A stretch of DNA of 64,000 nt. It comes from Dictyobacter arantiisoli (GTDB lineage: Bacteria > Chloroflexota > Ktedonobacteria > Ktedonobacterales > Ktedonobacteraceae). The stretch spans positions 62,001 through 126,000 of the forward strand of contig NZ_BIXY01000003.1 of assembly GCF_008326305.1 (NCBI RefSeq), read 5' to 3'. Positions within the stretch are counted from its first letter, which is position 1, and the number at the start of each line of letters is the position of its first letter. A model generated the notes under the pieces. That model saw only the letters and a list, made by a program, of their open reading frames with translations, was not told the origin of the DNA and did not search any database. The translations under genes were made by a program, and so were the position numbers. Shown piece by piece: positions 16,431-42,569 of the stretch.

Positions 16431-17267
16431 ATGCAGAATACACAACAAATACAGAAGAGCGGCATGCCAGGTATGCTGCTCACAGAAAAAATCATCTGGC
16501 TGGGAGTAGCATTGCTCGCCAGCTTTTTTTTCCTCTTCCTGGGTATCCCTCTCGTCTCTTTATTTTTTCGCGAACAGCCCTCCGTGATCTGGAATGAGTT
16601 ATTGCAGCCAGATATCTTTCAGTCCTTGCAGTTAAGCGTGGTCACAACAACCATCAGCACGCTCCTGACGATCCTTTTTGGTTTACCCGTGGCGTATCTG
16701 CTGGTACGCACCCGCTTTCGGGGTCAAGCTGTATTGGAAACGCTGGTCACGCTGCCCACGGTTCTGCCGCCAGTGGTTGCGGGGGTGGCATTGCTGTTGA
16801 GCTTTGGACGGATGGGGTTGATAGGTCACTATCTGGATCTGGTGGGGATTACCATTCCTTTTACGACTGTGGCTGTGGTGATGGCGCAGATTTTTATCGC
16901 AGCTCCGTTTTTTATCAATAGTACCAAAGCCGGACTTGAGCAGTTGGATCGGCGCTATGAACTGGCGGCTTATACCTTGCGGGCCTCGCCGTTCTATACT
17001 TTCTGGCATGTCGTTCTGCCATTGATCCGGCCAGCTTTGCTTTCGGGTATCGGTTTGAGCTGGGCCCGTGCATTGGGCGAATTTGGTGCCACGATTACTT
17101 TTGCAGGCAATTTTCCCGGTACCACTCAGACGATGCCCATTGCCGTCTATATTGCCTCCGAATCGGATCTGGATAAATCAATCGCGCTGGCAGTCGTCTT
17201 GCTGGCTGTTTCCTTCGGTCTATTGCTTACCCTGCGTTTAAGCCAGCGCTATTATCTCAATAGGTAG
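16431..17267 (+). CDS. modB: Molybdate ABC transporter permease
   Basis: ModB is the membrane channel of the molybdate importer. At about 278 aa it has five or more hydrophobic spans. It also carries the permease signature near residue 215 (ELGEFGATITFAGN in slightly shorter form ALGEFGATITF), followed by NFPGTTQTMPIAVY, which is diagnostic of ModB. The start may be ATG 16431 (GAGTGGA upstream) or the in-frame GTG at 16422. The start abuts a half palindrome, so the leader appears to have been reshaped by the repeat array. No ATPase gene (modC) follows within this window. Confidence 0.92.
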   Translation: MQNTQQIQKSGMPGMLLTEKIIWLGVALLASFFFLFLGIPLVSLFFREQPSVIWNELLQPDIFQSLQLSVVTTTISTLLTILFGLPVAYLLVRTRFRGQAVLETLVTLPTVLPPVVAGVALLLSFGRMGLIGHYLDLVGITIPFTTVAVVMAQIFIAAPFFINSTKAGLEQLDRRYELAAYTLRASPFYTFWHVVLPLIRPALLSGIGLSWARALGEFGATITFAGNFPGTTQTMPIAVYIASESDLDKSIALAVVLLAVSFGLLLTLRLSQRYYLNR

Positions 17268-17380
17268 TATGTCCTGGATTCAGCTTGATTTTGGTGCTTT
17301 ATATGCTTAATTTGGGAAAATACATAGGCGTTTCGCCTAGTATTTTTTCTCAGCTTTCTAAGAATCTGGGGATAAATTGA

Positions 17381-38837: not shown

Positions 38838-39267
38838 ACAAAAAAATACCATCCTGTCTCTTGTACTAATGTTTGCTAGTGACAGTATAAACAGATGCAT
38901 GAAATTTTCTCGGTAGAAGCTCGTATTGCTTCCTTTCAACACGTTCTATGGTATGAATATCAAATAAAGTATTTCCTGGTACTTGCAGAGAAAAAAATCC
39001 TGATGCATTCTGGTTTGTATAACATTTGTACTATTTTACCCCCGTAGTACTACTCATATTGGCTTAGCCATGCGTTTTACATATGGACAATAAAATACGT
39101 CAAAATAGGTGTACGATCCTACGAGGAAGTCGTCAGTCAGATTTGAAAAATGGAATATGTGATAGGTCATTGAAGCATAATCCATCTTCCTGATAGGTAG
39201 TAGGTCCCGACAGGGTTATGTTATACTGAAGGGCAAATATCGTATCCCGAACAAAAGCTAAGAAAAG
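38838..39267. other. Divergent intergenic region
   Basis: This 430-bp stretch lies between two divergent genes. It is AT-rich, and I see no gene and no clear operator. It contains the region where the second kinase's open frame begins (after a stop at 39201-39203). Confidence 0.45.
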
Positions 39268-41612
39268 ATGGGGGGCTCACAATCAGCGGCCGAACGAATA
39301 ACCCAACCGGTCATCTGGACCGAGGCACCATTCTTCATAAACGCTACCAGCTCCAGAGGGTAATTGGACAAGGTGGCATGGGTGCGGTATATCTAGCGAA
39401 GGATCTTAAGGAACAGGGCCAACTCTATGCAGTTAAAGAGATGAGCCTGTCCCTGATCCCGCCGGCTGAGCAGCAACAAACGATCACAAACTTCAAGACT
39501 GAGGCGAAAATGTTGTGGTCGTTGAATCATCCGAATCTGCCCTCGGTACGCGGTGTTTTTGCTCAGGGAGAACGCTATTTCCTGGTGATGGAATATGTTG
39601 ATGGCGCGACACTCGAAGAGTTGTTGGAGCGCAATGGTGGTCCCTTCCCGGAACGACGTGTCCTGGATTGGGCCCGGCAACTATGTGATGTGCTGGCCTA
39701 TCTGCACAGCCATAGTCCTCCCATCATTTTCCGGGATATGAAGCCGGGCAATATTATGTTGACGCGCAACGGACAAATTAAGTTGATTGACTTTGGTATT
39801 GCGCGTTTCTTCCGCCCATCACATGCCCAGGATACCCAGGTTCTGGGCACGCCAGGCTATGCGCCGCCAGAGCAGTACGGGAAGGCGCAGACAGACGTGC
39901 GCTCCGATATCTATGCCCTGGCAATGACACTCTTCCATTTGTTGACCAATACCCTATCGGATGATGGCTTTGGATTGGAAAACGTACGTGCCATCAATCC
40001 ACGTATCTCTCCGATGGTGGCACGGGCACTGGAGAAGGCGTCAAGCATCAAGCCAAGCGAACGCTATGAGAGTGTGGATCTGTTTCGGCATGCGTTACTG
40101 GGCGTAGGGACGTTTGGTTTCGCGAGCGGTGAGGTAGCTTCAATCCCCGAAGAACTGGCAACGCTGTGCGCACGCTATCCAGAAGAGGCGGGCGAGTATC
40201 TTGTAGATAATGAAATCGAATCCTGGCTGCTCGATCTGGGCGAGGATGAGTTGTCGGAGATGGCCGGTCAGCTCGCCCGTACGGTAGTCGATCCAGTGGA
40301 TGCGATTGAGCAGTTTGTAGAATCAGTGCTCTTCAATAAATCGGGGAATGCACGCTACAATGCATCTTCTCCTCTCAATTCAAATAGTAGTGCCAGCACA
40401 GTGAATGTACAGGTGCGCAATGCCGCACGCTATCATACGCCTCCGCCACTCACCCAATCCAACCGACTGCGCCTGACACCGAAGCGGAATGTGCCGGTCC
40501 CTGTCAGTCCACGTGTGCTCGATTTTGGTACGGTCTATCCTGGTATCTCAGCACCATTGAAGATTACCATTGGAGACCCATCTGGTTTGTCTGTGCGCGG
40601 CACGGTCCATACGCCCGATCCCTGGATACAGCTCAGCCAGGTGGAGTTGGATGCCGCAGTAACCGAGATCAGTGTGCGCGTGAATAGCTTGCGGCTTTCG
40701 CGTCACAGCCACTATAAGGGCAGTGTCGTGATCAGCCTGGAAGGCAATACGCGTGGGGATATCGTGGTGACGGTGGAGGCTGAGGTGCAGGGCTTTGTCG
40801 TGCGCAATAAGCGCCATCCCGGCCGTACCAATGGCGCGGATCTGGATTACTATGATGATGATGAGTTTGATAGTGAGGGAGCCATCCCGGTCGTGAATAC
40901 GACGTCGCTGGGACAGCTCATGACCCCGCCTTCGCTGACTCAAAAGCATGGTAAGGATCTGGATAAATATGGCACACCCTACATGGATGATTGGCAACTC
41001 AATCCACTGGGAAGGACGGTGCGTAAATGGCAACGCCTGGCCTTTACGTGGGTGAGTGCTTTTATGACCGCCAGTCTGGGGTATACCTGGTTGACGGGCT
41101 TACGCCCTGTTCCACTCACGCCTGCACCCTCTTTTCTCTGGGTCCTCTTTATCATGATTCCTACGGCGGTGGGTGGTGCCCTGGTGCTGCAACATGAAAA
41201 GCGTTGGCGTAGCTCTGATACGTATAATCGTACGCTTACCGGTCTGGTCAGTACGTTAGTAATTGTGAGTATGGCGGAACTGATCTGGAAATTGACTGCG
41301 GCACACATAGTGTTGGGCTGGATTCAGTTGATGGTAATGCTGGTGGCGGCTGCGACAGGTGCTACGCTGGGTGTATATCAGACTCCCAGCCGTAAAATGT
41401 TGACGACGACGAAGCTGATAAAGAGAAGAACCCATCAGCCGCGCTGGACGATGCTCTTTTTTGCGGTCCTGCTGGGTGGCATCTTTGGTTGGCTGCTGGC
41501 ACTGAGCTTTTCCTTCAATCTCTTTACAGTGTCTGGTATGCTGTTAGCTATAGGTATTATGGTGGGGTTGGTGGAGCGCGTTGATTATCTGGTTAGATAC
41601 AGACGTTTGTAA
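39268..41612 (+). CDS. Serine/threonine kinase with outer beta domain and multispan C-terminus (start disrupted)
   Basis: A kinase domain (about 300 residues) has GQGGMGAVYLAKD, the lysine in YAVKEM, FRDMKPGN (His of HRD replaced by Phe), DFGIARFF and GTPGYAPPEQYG. A beta-rich, Ig-like domain follows (DFGTVYPGISAPLKITI), then an acidic linker and about five membrane spans. The kinase frame is open back to 39204, but no ATG, GTG or TTG lies upstream of the glycine loop. An ATG at 39268 sits in the next frame, followed by a run of six G. Seven would restore the frame, so the CDS as given contains a one-base shift or uses a non-canonical start. Confidence 0.8.
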
Positions 41613-41627: not shown

Positions 41628-42569
41628 GTGGGGAATAAAACAGGTGAACAGCCGGATTTGATAGTCGTTCTGGGTCCGACTGCTTCGGGAAAAAGTGCAT
41701 TGGGCATTACGCTGGCGCAACGCTTCGCGGGCGAGATCGTCTCTGCCGATTCGCGTCAGGTATATCGAGGATTGGATATTGGGACGGCCAAGGTTACGCC
41801 GGTCGAGCAGGCTTTAATACCACATCATTTGTTGGATATTGTGGAACCACTGGAGATATATGGCGTTGCACAATTCCAACAGGATGCGGTTGCCGCGATT
41901 GATATGATTATTCAAGGTGGACGCCTCCCGCTACTGGTGGGCGGCTCGTACCACTATATTCAGACTGTCATCAATCATTTCGATATTCCGGCCGTTCCGC
42001 CTCAACTTGAACTGCGTGCGCGTCTGGAAGCTCTCCCTTTGCCACAATTGCTGGCGCAACTGGAGGAATTAGATCCCCAGAGTATGAAGACGATTGATCA
42101 GCAAAATCCTCGGCGGGTGATCAGGGCATTAGAGGTATGCCTGGTGACAGGGCAGCCTTTCTCGCAGCAGCGTGGCATCTCCCATCCTCTCTATCGTTGC
42201 CTGTTATTAGGCATTCAATGGCCGCGTCCTTTTCTTTATCAACGTATCGATAGTCGGATTGATGAACGGATGCAGGCGGGATTGGTTGAGGAAGTCCAGA
42301 CGCTGCTGGAGCGTGGTATCAGTCATGAGCGCCTGGACGCGTTGGGATTGGAATATCGCTTTGTGAGCCGCTGGCTGCGGGGCGAGTATCCTTCCGAGGC
42401 TGAGATGGTGCAACGCTTGAAGTATGCTTCTCATGATTTTACGCGCCGTCAGCTCAGCTGGTTCCGGCGCGAGCCGCGTATCGTCTGGTTGGATGGCGAG
42501 GTGGATCTGGTGGCACATGCCACGCAAGCCGTACAGAATTTTTTACAGCCCACTCCCACTCATCCTTAA
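41628..42569 (+). CDS. miaA: tRNA dimethylallyltransferase
   Basis: MiaA adds the isopentenyl group to A37 of tRNAs that read U-starting codons. At 313 aa it is full length. The P-loop GPTASGKSALGI, ADSRQVYRGLDIGTAKV and the PHHLLDIVEP block are diagnostic. The tRNA-contact region QRGISHPLYR and the ending FTRRQLSWFRRE also match. It starts with GTG 15 bp after the kinase stop, with a poor ribosome-binding site, so translation is likely coupled to the kinase. Confidence 0.96.
   Translation: MGNKTGEQPDLIVVLGPTASGKSALGITLAQRFAGEIVSADSRQVYRGLDIGTAKVTPVEQALIPHHLLDIVEPLEIYGVAQFQQDAVAAIDMIIQGGRLPLLVGGSYHYIQTVINHFDIPAVPPQLELRARLEALPLPQLLAQLEELDPQSMKTIDQQNPRRVIRALEVCLVTGQPFSQQRGISHPLYRCLLLGIQWPRPFLYQRIDSRIDERMQAGLVEEVQTLLERGISHERLDALGLEYRFVSRWLRGEYPSEAEMVQRLKYASHDFTRRQLSWFRREPRIVWLDGEVDLVAHATQAVQNFLQPTPTHP

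Follow-up and report, generated by a model that had tools for sequence, protein, structure and literature searches.

The window, a stretch of 64,000 nucleotides from a genome of the Dictyobacter group (order Ktedonobacterales) whose nearest named relatives are D. vulcani, D. kobayashii and D. aurantiacus, carries a Ser/Thr protein kinase gene followed by a conserved neighbour that we take from its sequence to be miaA (tRNA dimethylallyltransferase). These genes and the elements around the predicted kinase start are listed in Table 1. The kinase domain corresponds to Pfam PF00069 over residues 22–224 (E = 1.7e-45; 156 bits against a curated cut-off of 31.7). With the PknB/Stk1 PASTA kinase model NF033483 the protein scores 201.3 bits, which is below the cut-off of 450. 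Since the kinase domain is followed by hydrophobic C-terminal segments, the protein is probably membrane-bound. The 7.2-Mb genome contains 77 protein-kinase domain matches.

Table 1. Features of the kinase locus (coordinates are those of the window)
Feature	Position	Strand	Remarks
Conserved upstream promoter box TAGGTAGTAGGTCC	39194..39207	+	TAGGTAGTANSTCY upstream of the kinase in 22/28 genomes with an orthologue
Extended -10 element TGTTATACT	39219..39227 (hexamer 39222-39227)	+	Predicted transcript start near 39234
Out-of-frame ATG with 31-codon frame, judged not to be part of the gene	39268..39363 (stop 39361-39363)	+	ATG absent in most orthologues
Shine-Dalgarno (SD) site GGGGGG (G6 run)	39270..39275	+	CGGAGG or AGGGGG in other orthologues
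Predicted start codon ATC	39282..39284	+	Six bases after the SD site; ATC/ATT/ATA in 28/28 orthologues
Ser/Thr protein kinase gene, 776 aa	39282..41612	+	PF00069; hydrophobic C-terminal segments read from sequence
Conserved coding motif TGHLDRGTILHKRY	39306..39347	+	TGxL...LLHKRY in the family; amino acids kept, third codon bases vary
miaA (presumed), next gene	41628..42569	+	Conserved neighbour; negative control in the start survey

The kinase frame is directly preceded by a TAG codon (39201–39203) and is open from 39204 to 41612. Re-reading it bore out the initial annotation, according to which no ATG, GTG or TTG occurs before 39378; the ATG at that position lies within the glycine-rich loop GQGGMGAVY. 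The 1.264 Mb of this genome that were surveyed (17.5% of the total) contain 684 non-overlapping frames with 200 codons or more, and in six of them, the kinase included, at least 58 codons precede the first canonical start, so that the start-less lead is by itself unusual, not decisive. Four causes had been offered for it: a sequencing error, a phase-switching homopolymer, frameshifting and a rare start codon, for which an ATT at 39330 was named. The last proved right in kind, though the codon indicated by the comparison described below is the ATC at 39282. The ATT lies downstream of the conserved TGxL motif, and of the four remaining Dictyobacter orthologues three read TTT at this place.

The orthologue search covered 29 genomes of the Ktedonobacter family of soil bacteria and gave one strong match in 28 of them, representing all 13 genera. 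One locus (L024) is cut by its contig before the start, and the N-terminal half from the same genome was read as L118, which brings the number of readable starts to 28; G022, which is without an orthologue, and L216, which is cut before its start, were left out. In all 28 an in-frame ATH codon (ATA, ATC or ATT) is placed 5–8 nt after an SD-like site. The codon at this position is ATC in 19, ATT in seven and ATA in two; ATG, GTG and TTG were not seen there. Since every readable relative has an ATH codon at the SD-spaced position, the kinase gene looks intact. The comparison with orthologues, proposed in the initial annotation, revealed none that appears to begin inside the loop. Two orthologues possess a tandem ATC ATC, either codon of which could be the start; for one of these (L025) the first ATC was used in the start survey, and the second for the tree and the codon-change counts. 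On the protein tree there are at least six changes of the start codon, all between ATC, ATT and ATA and none to ATG. Chance could account in part for the lack of a G in six changes.

It is our view that the kinase very probably starts at AUC 39282, picked by the strong SD site which the G run provides six bases upstream. We regard this ATC, at its distance from the G run and conserved as ATC, ATT or ATA in the orthologues, as the decisive fact in predicting the start. The search of the window's own genome assembly found no 16S gene and the anti-SD sequence was therefore read from relatives; the 16S 3' end is GGATCACCTCCTTTCT in all five of the family relatives examined, and contains the anti-SD CCUCC.

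The region between the ATH codon and the loop was checked for signs of translation. Frame 0 is interrupted there by stops in none of the 28 sequences, against 21 and 18 for the other two frames, and in the 33 codons upstream of the ATH frame-0 stops are found in 26 of 28. When near-identical sequences were dropped, leaving 23 of the 28, pairwise differences numbered 5060 at third codon positions versus 2044 and 2004 at the others. Conservation is weak in the 15 alignment columns that follow the start (1355 nonsynonymous versus 407 synonymous codon differences), which means that support in this segment comes from frame and spacing, not from amino-acid conservation.

The alternative that the ATH is an internal isoleucine codon, some species starting translation at a canonical codon further upstream and the others in a different way, we consider improbable. 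In half of the orthologues (14/28) the start is less forced, as some canonical codon stands in frame after the upstream stop and ahead of the ATH. Five Thermogemmatispora-type genomes have an in-frame ATG ten codons above the ATH, and in L014 one stands five codons above it; translation might begin at the ATG in these genomes. Against this, the other 14 have no such codon, and in seven (L010, L012, L013, L020, L036, L025 and L018) the stop lies just 6–8 codons upstream. In six of the 28 there is no canonical start anywhere from the upstream stop to the loop. The window genome itself has none in frame upstream of ATC 39282. Moreover, the canonical codons upstream are not in the same place from group to group, while the SD site and the ATH are common to all.

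Programmed frameshifting or a phase-variable homopolymer, through which the ATG at 39268 would be joined to the kinase frame by way of the G run, is very unlikely. This ATG is indeed in the next frame, as the initial annotation has it, but it is followed by five more G residues, not six, its own G being the first of 39270–39275; read alone, its frame amounts to 31 codons (39268–39360) and a stop. An out-of-frame ATG is found 14 nt before the start in eight genomes, those of the window and seven others, and exactly six G are present at the SD position in nine, a length that is constant across them. Elsewhere the longest G run before the start is of another length (2 to 5; 19 of 28 orthologues), several orthologues have CGGAGG in place of the run, and in 17 of 28 no out-of-frame ATG occurs within 24 nt upstream of the start. 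That most orthologues lack the six G, the out-of-frame ATG or both argues against frameshifting and phase variation alike, and the run is in any case explained by its role as an SD site.

A shorter protein made from ATG 39378 is scarcely credible, even though this is the first canonical start of the kinase frame in the window, since it would cut the ATP-binding loop and the preceding 24 or so codons are coding, judged by synonymous change in the family. A sequencing or assembly error concealing a true start at ATG 39268 has next to no probability, for although the window genome is a 256-contig draft, the same out-of-frame layout is present in eight genomes that were assembled independently, four Dictyobacter among them, and this together with the exact six G shared by nine is strong evidence against a chance slip in assembly.

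Two genes served as controls for the start at AUC 39282. The positive control, infC (IF3), begins after an SD site with ATT in 26 and ATC in two of 28 family loci. In the negative control, miaA, an in-frame ATG, GTG or TTG stands before the Walker motif in all 23 loci holding the gene, and in 21 of them the SD score is modest or better. Relatives from outside the family have an ATG and a Cys-rich segment at their start in nine of nine readable cases, three of which are upstream of miaA; one more is cut by a contig end. The ATH start thus seems to go with loss of the Cys-rich N-terminal segment in the Ktedonobacter family.

Two further IF3-related sequences were noted. A Dictyobacter relative has an IF3 paralogue consisting of the N-terminal domain only (L147, G002:C1:2426063-2426275; 101-codon frame), which itself has an SD site with ATT; it is possibly a modulator of initiation. 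A second fragment with the IF3 N-domain, in the window's own genome (L148, G000:C175:4099-4314; 87-codon frame), adjoins an apparent transposase start and is perhaps a remnant.

A scan of the same 1.264 Mb for SD-placed ATH codons revealed no general excess. It was of low sensitivity and confined to 17.5% of the genome, and its first version failed to list even this kinase. The second version left two candidates, the kinase and a frame which from its sequence is presumably that of an acyl-CoA dehydrogenase. The "SD-ATC" of the latter was rejected, as it belongs to a hairpin with a terminal T run and the frame has an ATG of its own. No other convincing SD-ATH start was found by this low-sensitivity scan in the 1.264 Mb and, there being no excess in this part of the genome, the case rests on the kinase orthologues.

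Upstream of the gene, the box TAGGTAGTANSTCY next to an extended -10 element occurs at this site only in the 1.264 Mb of the window's genome. Over the 29 genomes the box was matched 31 times in 24, 22 of these matches being upstream of the kinase, and a backward control pattern matches too. It may bind a dedicated regulator. A second match in the window's own genome (window 17261-17274) lies where a coding frame ends, and we attribute it to chance. In D. vulcani (L011/L039) the promoter box is located some 300 or more bases further up, and extra, repeated-looking sequence separates the promoter from the kinase start.

In 27 of 28 orthologues the 260 nt preceding the start contain an extended -10 element of the TGNTATACT type, at distances of 36–57 nt in 12 and 105–152 nt in 15 (overall range 36–152 nt). 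A generic sigma-70 scan found no two-hexamer promoter upstream of the kinase. In the window the leader would be short (about 47 nt), assuming a transcription start seven bases beyond the -10 element. The predicted fold of this leader RNA is no better than that of shuffled sequences (z = 0.47).

Initiation factor IF3 discriminates against start codons that are not AUG, GUG or UUG. In our reading the non-canonical codon is kept by selection and would lower initiation, and the kinase, under IF3 discrimination, would be scarce and would rise when little IF3 activity is available per ribosome. The most likely reading of our analysis is that the non-canonical start keeps translation of the kinase low and IF3-sensitive. 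The gene is probably kept deliberately hard to translate; its sensitivity to IF3, taken separately, we hold to be rather likely. The frame, the SD site, its spacing, the ATH codon and the infC start codons come from comparison, and from them we infer that ribosomes start here, that the yield is low and that IF3 is the discriminator.

As a tentative proposal, with the odds against it, the Ktedonobacteraceae might use a membrane kinase to read out IF3 activity, the state of initiation being converted into phosphorylation signals by a circuit that would include the promoter box and miaA. As infC and the kinase gene share ATH starts, a fall in free IF3 would in this scheme raise the kinase along with IF3. 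The predicted kinase start would connect the fidelity of translation initiation with phosphorylation signalling in a simple way that lends itself to testing. There is also a practical side, in that gene callers limited to ATG, GTG and TTG would lose or misplace the N-terminus of this protein, the ATP-binding loop included.

To our knowledge, few genes other than infC have a non-canonical AUH start, and here one appears to have been retained throughout a bacterial family in the gene of a signalling kinase. In the open-licence literature we found no report of an AUH start beyond infC in this phylum (Chloroflexota), and none that brings together a noncanonical start codon, IF3 and a protein kinase. 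That the kinase gene bears a family-wide rare start codon, and so joins the known genes with non-canonical starts, is well supported by the sequence comparisons.

A close parallel, infC, is found in the same genomes. Like the kinase gene, infC (known with AUU, AUC or AUA) combines an AUH start with a strong SD site and is conserved in this over a family; it differs in that infC is a case of self-control, whereas any effect of IF3 on the kinase would be control of another gene. In Escherichia coli pcnB has an AUU start (Binns and Masters 2002, as cited in PMC13009471 and PMC9410913; the gene is also named in PMC4245954). It resembles the kinase gene in being a gene other than infC that is limited by such a codon, and encodes another protein. 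For Staphylococcus aureus, non-canonical starts are described in PMC13009471 for infC, cvfC1 and ccpN, and the same source gives the activity of AUH start reporters as about 10% of that of AUG in poor medium. The conserved non-canonical starts of ccpN (AUA; S. aureus and Bacillus subtilis) and cvfC1 (AUU; staphylococcal), which according to that source are accompanied by an extended SD site, are comparable to that of the kinase. These two are not kinases, and their starts are documented there by ribosome profiling and reporters, whereas ours is deduced by comparison alone. Lastly, Streptomyces sigR is described in PMC5472188 as having a GTC start and being repressed by IF3. Its start is GTC or GTT, not ATH, and the IF3 effect was tested for sigR in that work whereas for the kinase it is a prediction; yet sigR is, as the kinase gene would appear to be, the gene of a signalling regulator held down by a conserved non-canonical start.
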